Assembly: GCA_018004935.1 (NCBI GenBank) | Contig: JAGNBF010000056.1 | Location: 1-43,922, forward strand | Reading direction: 5' to 3' | Origin: Chloroflexota bacterium | GTDB lineage: Bacteria > Chloroflexota > Anaerolineae > Promineifilales > Promineifilaceae | DNA: 43,922 nucleotides | Shown here: piece by piece, positions 7,578 through 43,644 of the stretch | Layout: each line of letters opens with the position of its first letter | Position numbering within the stretch: the first letter of the stretch is position 1 | Notes under the pieces: generated by a model | Told to the model about the DNA's origin: nothing | The model's database searches: none | What the model saw: the letters and a program-made list of their open reading frames with translations, nothing else | Translations under genes and position numbers: made by a program

Positions 7578-7758
7578 ACTCCTACGAAAATGTAGGGCGA
7601 TTTTGTAAATCGCCCGGTGGACGATTTAAAAAATCGTCCTACAGATTTTCATCCCTCTTGGTGTGCCAAAGGCACATGGGAAACTCCTGTGAAAATGTGG
7701 GGCGATTTGGCAAATCGCCCGGACGATTTAAAAAATCGTCCTACAGATTTTCATTCCA
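7578..7758. repeat. Two tandem copies of palindromic repeat family A
   Basis: Two related units (about 7578-7660 and 7682-7758) each hold two adjacent hairpins, GGGCGATTT/AAATCGCCC and GACGATTT/AAATCGTC, bracketed by TGTAGG and CCTACA and followed by GATTTTCAT. The same unit recurs at 18608-18662, 18905-18945 and 18971-19050. Here they lie between two convergent genes and could terminate transcription from both sides. I take them for small non-autonomous palindromic elements (REP/MITE-like). Confidence 0.85.
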
Positions 7759-7790
7759 CTGAGTAAACACCCAATCAGAGGCACTCTTGC

Positions 7791-8264
7791 CTAATAGGCA
7801 AAAGCAATTTGATTGGTCAAGGTATCAACGAACTCTTCTAATTGCTCACCCATTTGCGGGCGATAAGTTGGACGGGCTGTAATAATCTGAGCCACATCAG
7901 TCACCAGATTACCCCCACTTTCCGTGACGACCACGCGGCCGCGGCCCCGGTTCACATTTTCCAACAGAGATTTAATACGGGCATCATGGCGTAAAACTTC
8001 AGCATTGCGGCCGCGGCTGGGCAAAATCAGTACATACTCATCCGCAGGATCAAATGGCCGATCCGCCAACGCATAATCTGTTTTGAGCGCCACACCCTGG
8101 CAACTGGTTACCAATTTATTAAACAGACTGATGCTCTTAATAGATAAACCGGCCAGACGAAATTTATGCAAAAAATACACAACCTCCCATTCATCAAAAC
8201 CATCACCAATGAGGATGTAGGTGTGCGGCCGCTTCTTACGTCCATTACCATTCGTGGTTGCCAT
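7791..8264 (-). CDS. DJ-1/PfpI-like (class I amidotransferase fold) protein without the nucleophilic Cys
   Basis: A 157-residue protein starting at the ATG complementary to 8262-8264; GGAG and GAGG precede this ATG, whereas the longer frame back to 8354 has no such support. The pattern resembles the DJ-1/PfpI fold: a first strand YILIGDGFDEWE (about 16-27), a VALKTDYALAD segment, and EYVLILPSRGR. In DJ-1/PfpI proteins the nucleophile elbow carries Cys. Here the corresponding VVVTESGGNL (about 111-120) has Glu-Ser instead, so protease or glyoxalase activity is unlikely and a sensing or binding role is more plausible. The family call is a pattern match and moderately secure. Three GCGGCCGC octamers lie in it. 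The gene is followed downstream by the family A hairpins. Confidence 0.6.
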   Translation of the reverse strand: MATTNGNGRKKRPHTYILIGDGFDEWEVVYFLHKFRLAGLSIKSISLFNKLVTSCQGVALKTDYALADRPFDPADEYVLILPSRGRNAEVLRHDARIKSLLENVNRGRGRVVVTESGGNLVTDVAQIITARPTYRPQMGEQLEEFVDTLTNQIAFAY

Positions 8265-8388
8265 GTCCTCGTACTCCACATAAACTCTATATATACCGTT
8301 CACGGTTACTCGGTGCATCATTGACTGGGGCCGGACACCCCACCGAGACACCAATTGGAGACGGCATTGCGTGTTGTTGCTTCAACAA

Positions 8389-8607
8389 TTAATTACCACT
8401 ACATGTGCCACCAGCGATTTGACATCCACCCGCAATTGCTTGCGCCCAATCTACATCCCCTTGATCTCCATCCATGACCCAGGCCCCCAGGCGATTGTCT
8501 GCCCCATAATGGGTATCCACAGCCTCCACCAGAGCAAAGGTCGCTAAAGAAAACAGTAGCGCTAACAAAAGGGATACCCGAACGATTTGCAGTTTGACAG
8601 ATTTCAT
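8389..8607 (-). CDS. Small secreted Gly/Cys peptide
   Basis: A 72-residue ORF. The ATG complementary to 8605-8607 is chosen because GGAGG lies seven bases upstream. Basic residues and a hydrophobic core (about 11-28) form a Sec-type signal peptide, with possible cleavage after VEA at residue 29. The predicted mature peptide of about 43 residues is acidic, then ends in a Gly-rich tail with Cys62 and Cys69 inside two AGG-C/AGGTC-type units. No family was recognised. It is divergent from the NB-ARC gene. The intervening region carries five regularly spaced heptamers pointing at this gene, followed by a TTTAAT -10-like box (8687-8692, minus strand). It could be a signalling or surface peptide; no modification enzyme is nearby. 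Confidence 0.6.
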   Translation of the reverse strand: MKSVKLQIVRVSLLLALLFSLATFALVEAVDTHYGADNRLGAWVMDGDQGDVDWAQAIAGGCQIAGGTCSGN

Positions 8608-8701
8608 TTTCAGCCTCCATTTTCCTAATTTCACTTTTCACACTTTGTTGAGAGTACAAAGCGCCCGTGCTAACATTGGCACGCAGATTAAACTGTTTTG
8701 G

Positions 8702-8751
8702 CTGTAATGATCTGTAAACTGCCTTGAAAGTAACTTGAAAACACCTTGAAA
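8702..8751 (-). promoter_or_regulatory. Five-heptamer activator array (TTTCAAG-type) before the small peptide gene
   Basis: On the minus strand, reading toward the peptide gene, heptamers TTTCAAG, TTTCAAG, TTTCAAG, TTTACAG and ATTACAG start at 8751, 8740, 8729, 8718 and 8708, with spacings of 11, 11, 11 and 10 bp. A TTTAAT box follows nine bases later at 8692-8687. Direct heptamers with one-helical-turn periodicity are the usual sites of OmpR/PhoB/SARP winged-helix proteins. The distal heptamer overlaps the ATG of the divergent NB-ARC gene, so occupancy could also repress that gene. The same array occurs at 11809-11857. Confidence 0.7.
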
Positions 8752-10187
8752 TGAACCAAAATCAAGAATTTGTTAAGACCAATCAAGTCCAAGATGCCCT
8801 ACGCCTCTGGCATGGGGGTGAAGTAGAACATTGGCCGTTAGGTCATTTACGGTTGGGGTTGCGCTTGCGGCCGCATCAAGAAGATTACCGTTCCCTGGCT
8901 GAAAGCGGCCCGGCGGCACAAAACCGGGCTACACTAAACCACGCGCTAGAATTCCTGCGCGGAACCTCGCTAGAAGCTGAAGAATTACTGCGTAACCGGT
9001 ACGAACACCGTACAGATGTGATGTCCCTGGCCAACACCCTCAATCTGAGCGAAGATAGCATCTACTACCGTCAACGTCAGGCCATTCACCAACTAACCGA
9101 CATCATTAACCAGCTAGAACAAGAAGCCCGTTCATCCTGGCAAGAGCGAATGCTCAATCGCCTGGAATTACCAACCTACACCCACTTAGTGGGTATCGAA
9201 AAGGTGCAAAGTCAACTTCTTGAAGCCTTAAAAGAACAACAAGAATCGTTTATCATCTCCTTAGAAGGGTTAGGCGGGTTAGGCAAAACCACCCTGGCCG
9301 ATGCCACGGTGCGTCTCTTGATAGAACAACAAAAATTTGATGAATTTGCCTGGGTAACAGCCAAACAAACCCATCTTTCCATGTTGGGGCGACTACAGGT
9401 AGAAAGCGGCAAACCGGCCCTTACGTTTCCGATGCTTCTGAACAAAGTCTCTCATCAATTCGAGCTAGACGAATATAATCCACCGACACAATTGCAACGG
9501 CAACGCCTGGTGCAACAATTCCTGCGCGAACGCGAATGTCTGGTTATCATTGACAATTTGGAAACAGTCACAGATTATCGCACCCTACTCCCAGAATTAC
9601 GCAAATGGCAAAACCCCAGTAAGTTCATTCTCACCTCGCGCTATCGTCTACTGGATGAACCAGGGGTTTACTCAATCGCCTTACAAGAATTAACTCGTAC
9701 CGCCGCCTTTCAACTCATCCGGCACGAAGGCAAACGCACTGGTGTCAACGCCCTCGCTCAGGCTTCAGATGAGGAACTCGATCCTATTTATCATGTTGTA
9801 GGCGGTAATCCTATGGCGCTGAAACTCATTGTTGGACAACTACGTTTTCATTCCTTATCCCGTGTTCTCAATCGGTTCAGCCAACATCGAGATCCCCAAC
9901 AAAGCAATGACCTTTTTGATTACATCTATCAAGAAATATGGAATACCCTGTCCGATGACAGCAAAGTCATTTTGTTGGCTCTGTCCCAGGCGGGCGAATC
10001 AGGTTTCATCTTTGACCACCTGGTAGAGATTGCGGCGCTCTCCGAAACCATCATTGAGACAAACCTGGAACAACTCATCTTGCTTTCCCTGGTCGAGCCG
10101 GGGGGAACACTTCTCGAAAAACGGTACCGCCTGCACCGCCTCACCGATTCCTTTGTCCAACGACTCCTAGGAACTGTCCAAGAATAA
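8751..10187 (+). CDS. NB-ARC (STAND) ATPase with sigma-like HTH N-terminus
   Basis: Signal-transducing ATPase with numerous domains. Residues about 55-125 resemble a sigma-70 region 4-like helix-turn-helix (SLANTLNLSEDSIYYRQRQA), followed by an NB-ARC core: P-loop GLGGLGKTT at 173-181, Walker B LVIIDNLE at 264-271, RNBS-B-like ILTSRYRLL at 293-301 and a GLPL-type GNPMAL at 352-357. A winged-helix segment ends the protein (YRLHRLTDSFV). There is no C-terminal repeat sensor; a TPR protein that looks like the missing half is the next gene at 10480. The product is probably a switch that oligomerises and contacts DNA or RNA polymerase, but the output is unknown. The ATG at 8751 has no clear Shine-Dalgarno and overlaps the last heptamer of the operator array. 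Confidence 0.85.
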   Translation: MNQNQEFVKTNQVQDALRLWHGGEVEHWPLGHLRLGLRLRPHQEDYRSLAESGPAAQNRATLNHALEFLRGTSLEAEELLRNRYEHRTDVMSLANTLNLSEDSIYYRQRQAIHQLTDIINQLEQEARSSWQERMLNRLELPTYTHLVGIEKVQSQLLEALKEQQESFIISLEGLGGLGKTTLADATVRLLIEQQKFDEFAWVTAKQTHLSMLGRLQVESGKPALTFPMLLNKVSHQFELDEYNPPTQLQRQRLVQQFLRERECLVIIDNLETVTDYRTLLPELRKWQNPSKFILTSRYRLLDEPGVYSIALQELTRTAAFQLIRHEGKRTGVNALAQASDEELDPIYHVVGGNPMALKLIVGQLRFHSLSRVLNRFSQHRDPQQSNDLFDYIYQEIWNTLSDDSKVILLALSQAGESGFIFDHLVEIAALSETIIETNLEQLILLSLVEPGGTLLEKRYRLHRLTDSFVQRLLGTVQE

Positions 10188-10199
10188 CTTTCCGCGTTG

Positions 10200-10410
10200 T
10201 TTCTAGTAGTGCGACAGACAAGATTTGTCGGTTGGAAGGTGGTGGCACGGTCAGGAGACCGGCCACAGCTATTCGACGGAATAAGTTTGTTGAACTACTA
10301 GAGACTCACTTAGTAATCGTCCAAGAATAAGTTCCGCGCAGACCTGACAGGTTTCCGAAAACCTGTCAGGTCTAAACCGGGAAGTTATTTTTAGATGTTC
10401 ACTTAGGGGC
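10200..10410. repeat. Repeat families D and B between the NB-ARC and TPR genes
   Basis: The gap starts with an inverted pair CTAGTAG/CTACTAG (about 10202-10208 and 10296-10302) enclosing a family D unit (10241-10269, GGTGGCACGG...GGCCACAGC). Family B follows at about 10309-10406. Its core is a 15-bp stem, AGACCTGACAGGTTT at 10340-10354 pairing with 10359-10373, flanked by GTAATCGTCCAAGAATAAGTT and GGGAAGTTATTTTTAGATG. Family B recurs at 24847-24937 and 28327-28420; family D at 20092-20121, 28443-28473, 32076-32103 and 41600-41625. No coding capacity is seen. Confidence 0.85.
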
Positions 10411-10479
10411 AGTAAAAGATAAGTTCCGTCAAGACCCAAACGGTCAAGTTATTTAATTTCCATTCCTTAGGATGGTGAT

Positions 10480-11721
10480 ATGAGTACCGGGCACGAAACA
10501 AAGCCTGTCAAACAATGGCAAATGATTCTCAAGCGTCAGGCCACCGCCAATGTGCACCGCTGGCTCCATCTCCTAAATAGCAAAGAAGATCCAACCCTCT
10601 TTTTGGCGCAAAACTACGATAATATTCTGCGTTCTTTAGAAACAATCCTGCCCCATGAAGAGCAACTTAACCTCACTTTAGAACTCATCAAAGCTATCTC
10701 CCCCTTCATTTTTAACTTTGCGGACTGGGACCGGTGGCTGACTTATCTGGACAAAGCCCTTGCCCAAACGATTCATTGTCAACAAATTGAAGATCAGGCT
10801 TATCTTTTGATAGAAATGGGGGCAATTCACCAGGCCCGGGGCGAATGGCAAAAGGCGTTAGACCATTTTGAGCAATCTGAGAGGCTGTATCTGCAACTCA
10901 ACTTGTCGGTAAAGTATGCCAGGGCATTGAACCGTCGGGGTGTCATGTTATGTAGTCTAGGGCAAATAGGTGAGAGCCTGAAATTATGTCAACAGGCGCT
11001 AAGTCTGGCTGAAGAATTTAAAGCTGAGGATATTGTGGCCGAAGCCCGCTGGAATCTCACCGCCGTTTACCAAAAAGCCCATTTATGGGAGAAGGCCCTC
11101 TTAACAGCTCGCGAAGCGATTGTCCATTATCAACAAAATGCTTCTAATGCTTCACGGCATACATTACAGCGGCTCATCATCATTTCTTTAAGCAAATTGG
11201 GGCGCAGTGAGGAGACGGCCACACAAGCCCAACTATTGCTTGATGAATTAACACAGGCTGGTGAAATTCAAAAGTTGGCGGCATTGCAGGTAGATTTAGG
11301 GGTCATTGCTTTTGAGCAAAATAACTACCGCGTAGCCGAAAAACATTGGTACGAAGCCTTACAACTTTATTCGCAAATTCAAAACCCGCACGACCAGGCC
11401 GTTTTGCATAATAATTTAGGGTATCTCTATACTAAACTTGAAGAGTGGGAAACGGCTGAGGTCATGCTTTTGCAGGCGATACGTATCTATGCAGAATTGG
11501 GTGACACTTACAACCAGGTGGACACGATGGACAACCTGGCCGAGTTGTATGAGGCCCAAAATAAAGGGGAGGCCCGCGGCCGCGTTCTGGCACAAGCCAT
11601 CCATTTGCTAGAACAGGTGGATAGGTCGCCCACCCCCTATTACCAGGAATTATTTGCCAAATTTACAGGGCAATACCATCAATTGTGTGAAACCATAACT
11701 ACTAAACCTCTCGAGGGCTGA
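10480..11721 (+). CDS. TPR protein, probable detached sensor half of the NB-ARC protein
   Basis: A 413-residue soluble protein, nearly all helical tetratricopeptide repeats. Its start (AQNYDNILRSLETIL ... DWDRWLTYLDKAL) resembles the first repeats that follow the winged helix in full-length NB-ARC/SARP-type STAND proteins; repeats such as ALDHFEQSERLYLQL, ALNRRGVMLCSLGQ and VLHNNLGYLYTKLEEWETAEVML continue to about residue 375. The ATG at 10480 follows AGGATGG. The NB-ARC gene upstream lacks any repeat domain, so the two products may assemble into one switch, with this protein binding the ligand or partner. A 292-bp gap filled with palindromic repeats separates them. A GCGGCCGC octamer near the 3' end encodes Gly-Arg. 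Confidence 0.85.
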   Translation: MSTGHETKPVKQWQMILKRQATANVHRWLHLLNSKEDPTLFLAQNYDNILRSLETILPHEEQLNLTLELIKAISPFIFNFADWDRWLTYLDKALAQTIHCQQIEDQAYLLIEMGAIHQARGEWQKALDHFEQSERLYLQLNLSVKYARALNRRGVMLCSLGQIGESLKLCQQALSLAEEFKAEDIVAEARWNLTAVYQKAHLWEKALLTAREAIVHYQQNASNASRHTLQRLIIISLSKLGRSEETATQAQLLLDELTQAGEIQKLAALQVDLGVIAFEQNNYRVAEKHWYEALQLYSQIQNPHDQAVLHNNLGYLYTKLEEWETAEVMLLQAIRIYAELGDTYNQVDTMDNLAELYEAQNKGEARGRVLAQAIHLLEQVDRSPTPYYQELFAKFTGQYHQLCETITTKPLEG

Positions 11722-11808: not shown

Positions 11809-11857
11809 TTTAAAGTTCGTTTCAAGGTAATTTAAAGGTTTTTCAAGGCCATTCAAG
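11809..11857 (+). promoter_or_regulatory. Five-heptamer activator array before the histidine kinase gene
   Basis: Heptamers TTTAAAG, TTTCAAG, TTTAAAG, TTTCAAG and ATTCAAG start at 11809, 11820, 11831, 11841 and 11851, with spacings of 11, 11, 10 and 10 bp. They match the array at 8702-8751 in sequence, number and spacing. A -10-like TATCAT lies at 11870-11875, seven bases before the ATG at 11882, so the transcript may be leaderless. The pattern fits an OmpR/PhoB/SARP-type activator shared by the two loci. Confidence 0.7.
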
Positions 11858-11881
11858 TTGGCTATATGCTATCATTTGCCC

Positions 11882-12634
11882 ATGATTCATTCACTTTCAA
11901 CGAACGGGCATAAAATGGAATCAGACGAGGTTTTTGATCTGTCAATCAGTACAATTATCCATGACCTAAATAATTTATTGACCACTGTTATTAGTCATGC
12001 TACCCTGGCTTTAGCCAAAACAGAAGATTGTCAGGAATCTCACCCCCATTTGGAACGAACCGTACAGGCGGCCAAATACGCGGCCGCGCTCTCCCGCCAG
12101 CTTAATCTCTACGCCAAAGAATCGCTCCACCAGGATGATAATACTGACCTCAATAACCTTGTCACCGAAATTACAGAACTACTTCGGCCCGTTTTTTTAC
12201 GGAATGTAACCGTACATTTAGACCTCGGTTACGGCCTGCCCTTTATTAAAGCCCCCAAACTCAAGATTCAACAAATTCTAATGAACCTGCTCATTAATGC
12301 GGCAGAGGCCATTCCCCCAGCCGGTGGGGCCATTACGCTCCAAACCGGGTGGGAAAAAATAAAAACACCCTTTAATAATGAAACGGGGTCCCGTTATCGT
12401 TTTGCACCGCAACCGGGTGAGTACCTCTTCTTACGGGTGGCAGACACGGGCGTAGGAATGAACGAAAATATTCTGGATGGTTTACTGATGCCCTATTTCA
12501 CCACCAAACCCCGCGGCCGCGGCCTGGGGCTGATAAGTGTTACAAAAACATTAGACGAATGGGGCGGCGGTCTCACCGTCACCAGTACGCCAGGCTTTGG
12601 CTCCGTCTTTACAATCTTTCTACCGATGGTTTAG
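11882..12634 (+). CDS. Sensorless histidine kinase (HisKA plus HATPase)
   Basis: Cytoplasmic sensor kinase of 250 residues made only of the catalytic core. The phosphoacceptor motif IIHDLNNLLT places the His at residue 27. The ATP-binding domain shows the N-box MNLLINAAEAI (Asn139), G1 box VADTGVGM (188-190 is DTG), F-box PYFTTKP and G2 box GRGLGL (212-217). There is no transmembrane or PAS domain, so input must come from a partner. No response regulator is nearby. The ATG at 11882 is preferred over TTG at 11858, which lies inside the heptamer array; ATG 11915 is also possible. The upstream heptamer array suggests control by an OmpR-like regulator. Confidence 0.9.
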   Translation: MIHSLSTNGHKMESDEVFDLSISTIIHDLNNLLTTVISHATLALAKTEDCQESHPHLERTVQAAKYAAALSRQLNLYAKESLHQDDNTDLNNLVTEITELLRPVFLRNVTVHLDLGYGLPFIKAPKLKIQQILMNLLINAAEAIPPAGGAITLQTGWEKIKTPFNNETGSRYRFAPQPGEYLFLRVADTGVGMNENILDGLLMPYFTTKPRGRGLGLISVTKTLDEWGGGLTVTSTPGFGSVFTIFLPMV

Positions 12635-28165: not shown

Positions 28166-28943
28166 AGAAGCTGTCCTTTAGGCAACAAAATGAAGGGGGG
28201 TCAGTGTAGTTTCCTTTAGTTTATTCCTCGTAACTACTAACTGGGGTTTAGAGCGAGAGGAGAGCGCGAGAGGAAATTACTCTGGAAAACCCTCTAGCTC
28301 TGGCTCTGAACTCTAAACTCAAGTACTAAGTAATCGTCCAAAAATAAGTTCCGCACAGACCTGACAGGTTTTCGGAAACCTGTCAGGTCTAAATCGGGAA
28401 GTTATTTTTAGATGTTCACTAAGTAATCGTCCAAAAATTGCCAGGGTGGCGCGGTCAGGAGACCGGCCACAGCAAATTGTTAAGTTAATTACGAACGATT
28501 ACTCATCGCACTTCTGTTTATGCCTGTTCTGGTTGCACTGGGGAAGAGATTATAACGCATTTTGCTATGGGGATAATAACGAGATGGGGGTTTGGGTTGG
28601 GCAATTTGCATAGCCGGGTTTTCCCCCACCCCTAGCCCCGCCCCCGGGGGCGGGGAACCTTGTAGGGGCTGTTTTTCGCGGGCAGACGCCCGCGAAAAAC
28701 AGCTCTGTTGATTTTTCCCATTTCCAGGAGAATTGTGGTTCATTGGGGAAAGTAGGTAATTGTCTTGTATCCGCCCTGCGGGCTAAAACGCCAGGCCGCA
28801 GATGAATTGATTCAACTGAAAATTACCTGTGCCATACCGGGTGTCTACCAAAGAGGCGCACCCCTTCCAGCCTCTGCTGTTCACTGTTCATGGATTAAGG
28901 GGTACAATGTAATGGTTAAAGCATGACACTCTACGAGGCTCCT
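28166..28943. repeat. Repeat-rich gap before the UPF0182 gene (families B, C, D, E)
   Basis: No gene is supported in this stretch. It carries family B (28327-28420, stem GACCTGACAGGTT/AACCTGTCAGGTC), family D (28443-28473), a family C variant in opposite orientation (28615-28720, with TTTTTCGCGGGC/GCCCGCGAAAAA) and a family E word (28770-28797). An 84-codon frame on the minus strand through the family C segment (28489-28743) is judged spurious. Confidence 0.8.
28880..28908 (+). promoter_or_regulatory. Candidate sigma-70-type promoter of the UPF0182 gene
   Basis: TTCACT at 28880-28885 and TACAAT at 28903-28908 are spaced 17 bases apart, about 36 bases before the chosen start at 28944. The -35 match is weak. 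Confidence 0.35.
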
Positions 28944-41700: not shown

Positions 41701-43644
41701 ATGCCACAGAAGCACCAACAATTGATGTTTGCCCTTTGCCTGTTACTCCTCTTAACGGCCTGTTCATCCGAGCAGACAACTACTCCGCAAGTAATAACGG
41801 TCGTCATGACACGCCCTCCTCTGGAAGTAACCCAGGTTGTTACCCGCCAGGTAGAAGTGCCCGTCACTATCACCCCCTCGCCCCACTTCGTGCCAGAACC
41901 CGACAGCCCCAAACATCTGACAGTCTGTCAGATCACCGAACCCAAAAGCCTCTATTGGTATGACAATCCCCCCTTTGGCCCACTGGCTTTAGCCAAAGAA
42001 AACGTCAGCCATGCTCTTTATGAAAATCTGTACACCACACGTGCCTATGCATTTCAACCGCAAGGGCTGGTCAGTTTACCCAGCCTGGAAACAGGGGATG
42101 CCGAAATCATTGAAGTGACGGTCAATAGGGGTGATACGGTAATGGATAGTCAGGGTCGCTTAGTAACGATAGCGAATGGAACCCGGTTGCGTAATTTTGC
42201 CGGTGAGGAGCTGATTTTTTCGGGCGAGCCGGTTATTCTGCCGCAAATGGTGGTTCGTTTTACCTTTCAACCATTGGTCTGGTCTGATGGTCAGCCGGTC
42301 ACTGCCCAGGATTCGGTTTTTAGCTATAAGGTAGCGCGAGATCCCAGTACACCAGGTTCTAAGACGCAGACGGGGCGGACGGCCAGTTATATGGCGGTTG
42401 CGGAACGCATGGTGGAATGGCGGGGGGTAGCGGGCTGGTTGGATCCGCTGTATTTTACGAATGTCTGGATGCCTTTACCCGCGCACCAACTGGCTGGCCT
42501 CGCGGCCGCGGAACTACTCACCACCCCCCAAACCACCCACTTTCCCCTCAGTAGCGGCCCCTTTGTTGTGCAAGAATGGGTACAGGGCCACCATATTGCC
42601 CTCGCCCGCAATCCTTACTACTATCGCCAAAACGAAGGTTTACCCCGGCTTGATGGTCTAACCATCCGCTTCGTTACCAACCAGGATCAACTTATCGCTT
42701 TGCTCCTGGCAGGAGAATGCCACATAGCCACTCAGGATGGACTAAGCCTGGCCCAGGCCACCTTACTCCACAATGCCCAGAGTCAGGGCTTTCTCACCGT
42801 TTACTCCCAGACAACCGCTGTTTTTGAGCATCTGGATTTTGGCATTAACTCTGAACCTGTTTATGCCAGTAAACGCCCAGACTGGTTTGAAGATAGTCGT
42901 GTCAGGCAGGCTATTAGCCAATGTTTGGATCGTCAGGCAATGGCTGAGGTGATTCTTTACGGCACGGGCCAGGTATCGGATCTATTCGTGCCCCCCGATC
43001 ACCCCCTCATTACGGCAGATGTGCCCCATTGGCCCTTTGACCCTGCGGCCGCAAATATCCTGTTAGATGAACTGGGGTATCATGACTTCAACGGTGATGG
43101 CATACGCCAAAATCCCCTGGACAACAAACCATTTCGAGTGAATCTGGGCATCAGTCGCAACAATGCCACTCACCAGCAGTTAGCCACCATGCTGGTCACG
43201 AATCTGGCCCAATGTGGCATTGAGGTCAATATTATTATTTACGGGGCCAGCGAATGGTTTGCCCCAGGCGGCCCGCTCTTTGGCCGACGTTTTGATCTGG
43301 CTATTTTCCCCTGGATCACCCCCTTGTCAACGCCCTGCCATTTTTATACCACGACAGCTATTCCAGGCGAGGCCAATGATTGGCAAGGTAACAATGAAAT
43401 GGGCTGGAGCAATACGGCCTTTGACACGGCCTGCCAGAACGCCCACCAGGCATTTTGGGGGAGTGATTCGTTCGCGGCCGCGACCCAAAACACCTTTCGT
43501 CTCTTTGCCCAAGAACTACCCTCCCTTCCCCTCTTTCACTACCTCAAACTCTCCGCCACTCTCCCCACCGTCCAACATTTCCAACCTGACCCCACCCAGA
43601 GTTCGGAATTTTGGAATGTTTTCGAGTGGGACATTCAAGAGTAG
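41701..43644 (+). CDS. Family 5 (peptide/oligopeptide) ABC substrate-binding lipoprotein
   Basis: A 647-residue extracellular solute-binding protein of the DppA/OppA family (SBP_bac_5). A signal peptide with lipobox LLTAC sets the lipid Cys at residue 21, followed by a Thr/Val/Pro-rich linker to about residue 60. The body has the family's usual order: VSHALYENLYTT, then VRFTFQPLVWSDGQPVTAQD, then SGPFVVQEWVQGHHIALARNPYY, then RVRQAISQCLDRQAMAEV-like sequence. Members usually bind peptides, nickel or sugars; the ligand is unknown. No permease or ATPase follows before the window ends, so it is an orphan here or shares a transporter encoded elsewhere. It carries three GCGGCCGC octamers. Confidence 0.9.
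   Translation: MPQKHQQLMFALCLLLLLTACSSEQTTTPQVITVVMTRPPLEVTQVVTRQVEVPVTITPSPHFVPEPDSPKHLTVCQITEPKSLYWYDNPPFGPLALAKENVSHALYENLYTTRAYAFQPQGLVSLPSLETGDAEIIEVTVNRGDTVMDSQGRLVTIANGTRLRNFAGEELIFSGEPVILPQMVVRFTFQPLVWSDGQPVTAQDSVFSYKVARDPSTPGSKTQTGRTASYMAVAERMVEWRGVAGWLDPLYFTNVWMPLPAHQLAGLAAAELLTTPQTTHFPLSSGPFVVQEWVQGHHIALARNPYYYRQNEGLPRLDGLTIRFVTNQDQLIALLLAGECHIATQDGLSLAQATLLHNAQSQGFLTVYSQTTAVFEHLDFGINSEPVYASKRPDWFEDSRVRQAISQCLDRQAMAEVILYGTGQVSDLFVPPDHPLITADVPHWPFDPAAANILLDELGYHDFNGDGIRQNPLDNKPFRVNLGISRNNATHQQLATMLVTNLAQCGIEVNIIIYGASEWFAPGGPLFGRRFDLAIFPWITPLSTPCHFYTTTAIPGEANDWQGNNEMGWSNTAFDTACQNAHQAFWGSDSFAAATQNTFRLFAQELPSLPLFHYLKLSATLPTVQHFQPDPTQSSEFWNVFEWDIQE

Follow-up and report, generated by a model that had tools for sequence, protein, structure and literature searches.

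A cassette resembling a self-amplifying peptide signalling circuit in Chloroflexota

A small peptide gene beside a split NB-ARC/TPR pair

The stretch of DNA analysed here (the window: all 43,922 nucleotides of contig C8:1-43922, from a Chloroflexota bacterium with an 8.0-Mb genome in 229 contigs) carries a small peptide gene on the minus strand (8389-8607) and, running the opposite way, genes for an NB-ARC ATPase (8751-10187), a tetratricopeptide repeat (TPR) protein (10480-11721) and, last, a histidine kinase (ending at 12634). Taken together, the cassette resembles a peptide signalling circuit that amplifies itself, one of a previously undescribed kind. Its genes and their features are:

8389-8607, minus strand: gene for a 72-residue peptide with a hydrophobic export-type N-terminus, two Cys within the last 11 residues and the C-terminal sequence IAGGCQIAGGTCSGN
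8614-8618, minus strand: ribosome site GGAGG of the peptide gene
8751-10187, plus strand: gene for an NB-ARC (STAND) ATPase of 478 residues (Pfam NB-ARC PF00931, E = 2e-16 over residues 151-382)
9012-9125, plus strand: predicted helix-turn-helix (HTH), residues ~88-125 of the NB-ARC protein (weak Pfam matches)
10188-10479, plus strand: derived NB-ARC/TPR spacer of 292 bp, with a REP-like palindrome at 10341-10372
10480-11721, plus strand: gene for a TPR protein of 413 residues, the putative sensor subunit (TPR_12, E = 8e-24; AlphaFold2 mean pLDDT 89)
11882-12634, plus strand: gene for a soluble histidine kinase with no recognised sensor domain (HATPase_c, E = 2.5e-15; HisKA weak)
7791-8354, minus strand: gene for a DJ-1/PfpI-like protein (Pfam DJ-1_PfpI, E = 7e-9), presumed to be second on the peptide transcript

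The original prediction of a 72-residue, two-Cys peptide gene divergent from the NB-ARC gene is borne out by these positions. BLAST with the 72-residue peptide finds no homologue at useful E-values, so synteny is needed to find its counterparts. Orthologues of the NB-ARC protein (51-62% identity) occur in 23 additional genomes of 52 examined from the same family, which gives, with the window, a set of 24 loci in 12 genera of one Anaerolineae family; the DNA around each was compared over at most 15 kb, as far as the contig reached. Every one of the 24 loci has a small divergent open reading frame (ORF) at the equivalent position with a strongly hydrophobic N-terminal stretch, encoding 51-72 residues when starts are picked by ribosome site. 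Exactly two Cys, both in the final 12 residues and spaced C-x3-7-C, are found in 23 of the 24 (tails such as CSTTGCIG, CGSTCTI, CVSSGGVCTGV and CVNSFCAW). The two Cys of the original description stand, but the "repeated AGG-C units" in which it placed them belong to this genome alone, and conservation is limited to the Cys pair at the C-terminus.

A mechanical definition of the peptide (45-130 residues, a hydrophobic window, two Cys within the last 12 residues) picks out an ORF in 23/24 orthologous gaps on the peptide strand as against 0/24 on the opposite strand. The same definition picks out 36 of 2400 shuffles (1.5%), 5 of 1111 random windows and 1 of 32 control loci (NB-ARC homologues of at most 43% identity, treated as paralogues and excluded from the orthologue counts). 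The co-occurrence of peptide and NB-ARC/TPR pair, which had been suggested as a check, is thus observed throughout the orthologous loci, and the case named as speaking against the idea, a syntenic locus lacking a peptide gene, was looked for and not seen. Six independent close pairs of peptides, pooled, show purifying selection (proportion of synonymous differences 0.41 vs 0.078 non-synonymous, p = 1e-30), with omega between 0.05 and 0.22 per pair. The peptide gene is real, conserved and coding, and its product is probably exported, to judge by hydrophobicity alone.

The P-loop GLGGLGK is invariant in five aligned NB-ARC sequences (structure alignments used five sequences, the near-identical L092 being omitted), which places the protein among STAND NB-ARC modules; a match to it is absent from the plasmid collection searched. 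The TPR protein is encoded apart from it in 23/23 orthologous loci with readable DNA, mostly with a 1- or 4-base overlap with the NB-ARC stop. The separate TPR gene had been correctly called, although "split" does not mean a broken gene here but the normal architecture of the family. The other case held to speak against a peptide link, an intact NB-ARC-TPR fusion without the peptide, was also sought: orthologues are never fused, and the sole fused homologue, a single HTH-NB-ARC-TPR chain at 42% identity with no peptide, is a paralogue. Paralogous pairs consist of an NB-ARC gene of ~475 residues followed by a TPR gene of ~400 residues (TPR confirmed in 9/9 scanned; Pfam scans beyond the window covered eight array-led ORFs, nine second genes of paralogues and the one fused paralogue). 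The split NB-ARC/TPR pair is a broad type, of which, among the loci compared, only the branch of these orthologues has the peptide. Such split paralogues are abundant (L086-L088, L103-L138), with up to 25 NB-ARC matches in a single genome (G031). The REP-like palindrome of the window's NB-ARC/TPR spacer, GACCTGACAGGTTT..AAACCTGTCAGGTC, has 197 genomic copies, those in the window lying at 10341-10372 and 28358-28389.

The predicted fold of the TPR protein lies nearest, among solved folds, to LGN/Pins (Z ~30, with LGN at 31), then NprR (Z 24.6) and Rap with its pheromone (Z 23), among other TPR proteins. LGN, NprR and Rap are peptide-binding TPR proteins. NCBIfam gives below-cut-off TPR matches only (HaaT, FimS, AfsR). 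A reading of the locus as a defence system is unsupported, its PADLOC matches being weak (E = 0.002 for PbeC and 2e-7 for a generic TPR model). The TPR protein diverges faster than the NB-ARC protein (mean pairwise identity 0.44 vs 0.61 over 22 loci), its residues 101-260 being the most variable, and three Asn in the C-terminal repeats are invariant.

Heptamer arrays and the genes they lead

The peptide promoter had been described as carrying a heptamer array, and the downstream kinase as being preceded by the same one. Both arrays are present, each with a candidate promoter element:

8712-8751, minus strand: peptide array TTTCAAG-n4-TTTCAAG-n4-TTTCAAG-n4-TTTACAG, 11-bp period, reaching the NB-ARC start codon
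8685-8690, minus strand: peptide promoter -10 box (TAATCT), 21 bp past the last heptamer
11809-11858, plus strand: second heptamer array, ahead of the kinase, with the same motif as the peptide array
11870-11875, plus strand: kinase promoter -10 box (TATCAT), 21 bp past the last counted heptamer

A strict three-unit pattern has three matches in the window, all at these two arrays, vs 0.00 expected from shuffling. Over the whole 8.0-Mb genome, with up to three mismatches allowed, there are five three-unit matches, four at the two arrays and one in a coding frame on contig C69 (reversed control, two). Across the orthologous loci the gap between peptide and NB-ARC gene has a lag-11 signal of mean z 4.1 (24 loci, each at least 1.9), with other lags near 0 and lag 10 at 0.9; upstream of the kinase the lag-11 mean z is 4.8 (14 loci), as against -0.25 for the NB-ARC coding control. 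Upstream of paralogous NB-ARC genes the mean 11-bp signal is absent (mean z 0.6; above 2.5 in 5/32). A 10-bp periodicity is in excess upstream of the same 32 paralogous loci (mean z 1.9) and may reflect a second type of operator spacing.

Scanned with a matrix, the orthologous loci (317 kb) show 31 arrays, all before a peptide or a kinase. Compiled from peptide and downstream promoters (39 arrays, after exclusion of seven weak regions, all downstream of the TPR gene), the arrays have three to five units with the consensus TTTRNAG, position 7 being C in one clade, and in 28 of the 39 promoters the last unit is followed, at a distance of exactly 21 bp, by a TANNNT box. As read from the DNA, this geometry of array and -10 box is that of an activator-dependent promoter. 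Arrays (TTTGNAG, at most two mismatches) are found in 16 of 17 genomes with an NB-ARC orthologue vs 6 of 28 family genomes without one (Fisher, 1.7e-6), and the latter are at background (7 array matches vs 13 in the reversed control). All six genomes of the TTTGNAC clade have arrays when searched with their own motif. The sole perfect array among the NB-ARC-negative genomes (G063) sits between a TPR end and a pair of kinase and response regulator genes, that is, in a cut-off fragment of the cassette. Since arrays track the cassette, and the G063 array lies in such a fragment, their binder should be cassette-encoded.

That binder is likely the HTH of the NB-ARC protein. Among 12 aligned N-termini (of the 24 orthologues), Sigma70_r4 is matched in 8/12, DUF1492 in 9/12 and HTH_30 in 8/12, with a best E of ~0.002. 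Trans_reg_C is not among the matches listed for the 12, and BTAD is matched in one of them only (E = 0.015, under cut-off); a profile of the N-terminal domain against solved structures gives no credible match (best E 0.028). In 6/6 genomes with TTTGNAC arrays the predicted recognition helix carries S-R, and in the 18/18 whose arrays end in G the corresponding residue is E. The form S-E-D occurs in the window genome alone, where the array units are TTTCAAG.

Downstream of the TPR gene a kinase is found at 14 loci, accompanied at seven by a single-domain response regulator, and a response regulator alone at six more. A phosphorelay partner at every locus is ruled out: L075 and L082 have neither kinase nor response regulator although the contig continues (the contigs of L085 and L123 end before a possible one). 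For the window's kinase, a start at 11915 is likelier than one at 11882 because of the promoter position.

Relatives show further array-led genes. Giant secreted RHS/SpvB genes are led by arrays in three genera (G013, G032 and G014; loci L199, L203 and L212). When eight cassette genomes are searched for SpvB, exactly these genes rank as the top three; G032 has two weaker matches, which are not known to be array-led. The genome of the window itself gives no SpvB match, and the evidence for the RHS link therefore comes from relatives only. Other array-led genes there encode PD40-like lipoproteins and a nucleoside-hydrolase-like protein (both named from translations alone) and peptidase-like proteins. 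Several two-mismatch array sites in relatives, some of which may be chance, were excluded from the targets; they include sites in G064 and G065 (L219, L221), at a similar distance ahead of an acyltransferase (polyketide-type) gene.

On the other side, a DJ-1-like gene directly follows the peptide gene on the same strand at 22/24 orthologous loci, 26-91 bp past its stop in the loci measured (the start in L085 could not be set). In the window its probable homologous start is the ATG at 8263, earlier in-frame starts being present. The aligned DJ-1-like sequences lack the nucleophile-elbow Cys, at a position that we take to be the elbow from DJ-1 anatomy. Short inverted-repeat elements, GGCGATTT..AAATCGCC and GACGATTT..AAATCGTC, occupy the gap before this gene (7590-7765).

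Elsewhere in the window, an oligopeptide-type solute-binding protein (SBP_bac_5, E = 1.5e-52) is encoded at 41701-43644, ~30 kb from the peptide gene. The octamer GCGGCCGC has 67 sites in the 44 kb (442-43481) vs 0.9 expected from shuffles, and is a highly iterated palindrome, recalling cyanobacterial HIP1; a literature search gave no report of a HIP1-like iterated octamer for Chloroflexi.

A candidate autoinduction circuit and its rivals

With a probability of about 0.5, the cassette is a self-amplifying STAND activator circuit that switches on its own peptide gene together with a phosphorelay gene, with the peptide most likely the ligand of the TPR protein. The computed features (a conserved coding peptide, split and coupled receptor genes, array/promoter geometry, array-cassette linkage, other array-led genes) would fit together as follows. 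The NB-ARC protein would be an ATP-switched (STAND) transcription activator that contacts DNA through its N-terminal HTH and is gated by the TPR subunit, made as a separate, usually translationally coupled chain. In its active state it would probably multimerise along the 11-bp-spaced heptamers and recruit RNA polymerase to the -10 box 21 bp downstream; activation is the sign of control that we infer. Three groups of genes would thereby be switched on: the divergent presumed operon (small exported peptide plus DJ-1-like protein); the adjoining downstream genes, for a histidine kinase, a single-domain response regulator or both; and, in certain genera, genes of secreted proteins, the RHS/SpvB giants among them. 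The peptide, presumably secreted, would be matured to a short hypervariable C-terminal piece, probably closed by a disulfide, and recognition of this piece by the TPR protein would make the loop one of peptide autoinduction. Such autoinduction is the most economical account, because the putative activator drives the adjoining peptide gene and because the peptide and the TPR protein are the fast-evolving members. A fuller version, which we put forward tentatively and hold at rather less than even odds, is peptide quorum sensing with a STAND switch of NLR-like type, in which a pheromone specific to its lineage and ringed by a disulfide would act through the detached TPR sensor, releasing the NB-ARC protein onto the arrays for production of pheromone, phosphorelay and (in some genera) RHS/SpvB proteins.

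Several observations weigh against autoinduction through the TPR protein. The split paralogous pairs have no such peptide, so the split alone tells nothing about peptide sensing. Co-variation of peptide and TPR protein beyond NB-ARC distance is weak, with a partial r of 0.24 for the variable middle and 0.23 for the conserved ends; since these partial Mantel values are similar, co-diversification is not taken as proof. The peptide of L077 (genome G013) has no Cys, yet its arrays are perfect, which makes the ring dispensable. All HTH matches of the NB-ARC protein are under Pfam cut-offs, and its AlphaFold2 model is unreliable (pLDDT 49). The six TTTGNAC genomes form one clade, so the joint G/C and Glu/Arg change is probably one event. 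Finally, the genome-wide pattern search finds no array outside the cassette in the window genome.

The peptide might instead be an output: the switch would sense something else and the cell would respond by secreting the peptide, co-produced with the DJ-1-like protein, as an antimicrobial, adhesive or surface effector. The arrays of relatives also lead RHS/SpvB proteins, PD40-like lipoproteins and peptidase-like genes, so that the genes under arrays resemble a secretion regulon, and hypervariable Cys-bearing tails would fit antagonistic peptides as well. We nevertheless find this doubtful: the RHS/SpvB targets differ among genera, whereas the peptide is at 24/24 loci and always beside the receptor genes, and no immunity or dedicated maturation gene is recognised within the cassette. 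The weak HTH scores of the NB-ARC N-terminus would also suit a different arrangement, in which an unlinked OmpR/SARP-type regulator binds the arrays and NB-ARC, TPR and peptide genes are its targets or modulators; heptamers repeated every 11 bp and overlapping the -35 region are a classical SARP feature (PMC10972967). But the arrays follow cassette presence over 45 genomes and are at the cassette only in the window genome, and their motif shifts in the same clade as the NB-ARC recognition helix, which makes an unlinked binder quite unlikely.

Least probable of the readings weighed, and a long way from even odds, is that the small protein stays in the membrane, unsecreted, and acts locally by regulating or anchoring the kinase, the DJ-1-like protein or the TPR protein. 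A hydrophobic N-terminal stretch would suit a membrane anchor and a signal peptide alike, and no shared cleavage motif is established. A highly diverse tail with a kept Cys pair would, however, be unusual for a membrane anchor, and the kinase is missing at six peptide-keeping loci with a response regulator only.

If peptide autoinduction is correct, the receptor complex for a self-made peptide would include an NLR-type bacterial STAND ATPase. The clear operator sites would make the circuit testable by reporter, and the 24 pairs of peptide and TPR protein found in nature already form a panel for specificity. Chloroflexota are filament formers in activated sludge and anammox granules, and to our knowledge their cell-cell signalling is hardly charted; the literature searched, at the level of search results, gave no description of a peptide signalling system of this kind in the phylum.

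Comparison with known systems

One comparison is with the family's own paralogous split NB-ARC and TPR pairs, which have the same two-gene layout and similar sizes but (one of 32 loci apart) not the syntenic Cys-pair peptide, nor the mean upstream 11-bp signal. MalT is described as a P-loop STAND ATPase with a superhelical sensor, a DNA-binding end and repeated promoter sites (PMC4381067), and the heptameric repeats of SARP regulators as classical 11-bp units that usually overlap the -35 region (PMC10972967). The cassette, like MalT and AfsR/SARP, pairs a P-loop STAND ATPase with a predicted superhelical sensor, a putative DNA-binding end and repeated promoter sites, and it shares with SARP/AfsR heptameric direct repeats of 11-bp period. 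It differs from both in having the sensor in a separate gene and a divergent peptide gene under the same sites, and from SARP/AfsR in a DNA-binding domain that is not an OmpR-like winged helix plus BTAD.

RRNPPA systems, as outlined in PMC9765709, have a small exported propeptide adjoining a TPR receptor, with the pheromone expected at the propeptide C-terminus. Like these systems (Rap, NprR, PlcR, Rgg and AimR, of Bacillota), the cassette has an adjoining gene for a small, putatively exported propeptide (24/24 loci), its peptides are fast-evolving with the pheromone expected at the C-terminus, and its TPR protein is predicted to be superhelical, near NprR and Rap, a shared fold that in itself shows no function. 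Unlike them, its TPR protein is a separate chain of TPRs only, the HTH being on the chain of the STAND NB-ARC ATPase, and it has Cys-pair tails, DJ-1-like and kinase/response regulator partners, 11-bp heptamer arrays and a Chloroflexota host. RNPP_C (PF18768) does not match the window's TPR protein at E up to 1, and one paralogue (L138) marginally reaches the cut-off. The cassette falls outside RRNPP membership because its TPR and DNA-binding domains are on different chains, because its binder chain is a STAND ATPase and because it has no RNPP_C match. By analogy, it may be RRNPP-like in logic, though not by membership.

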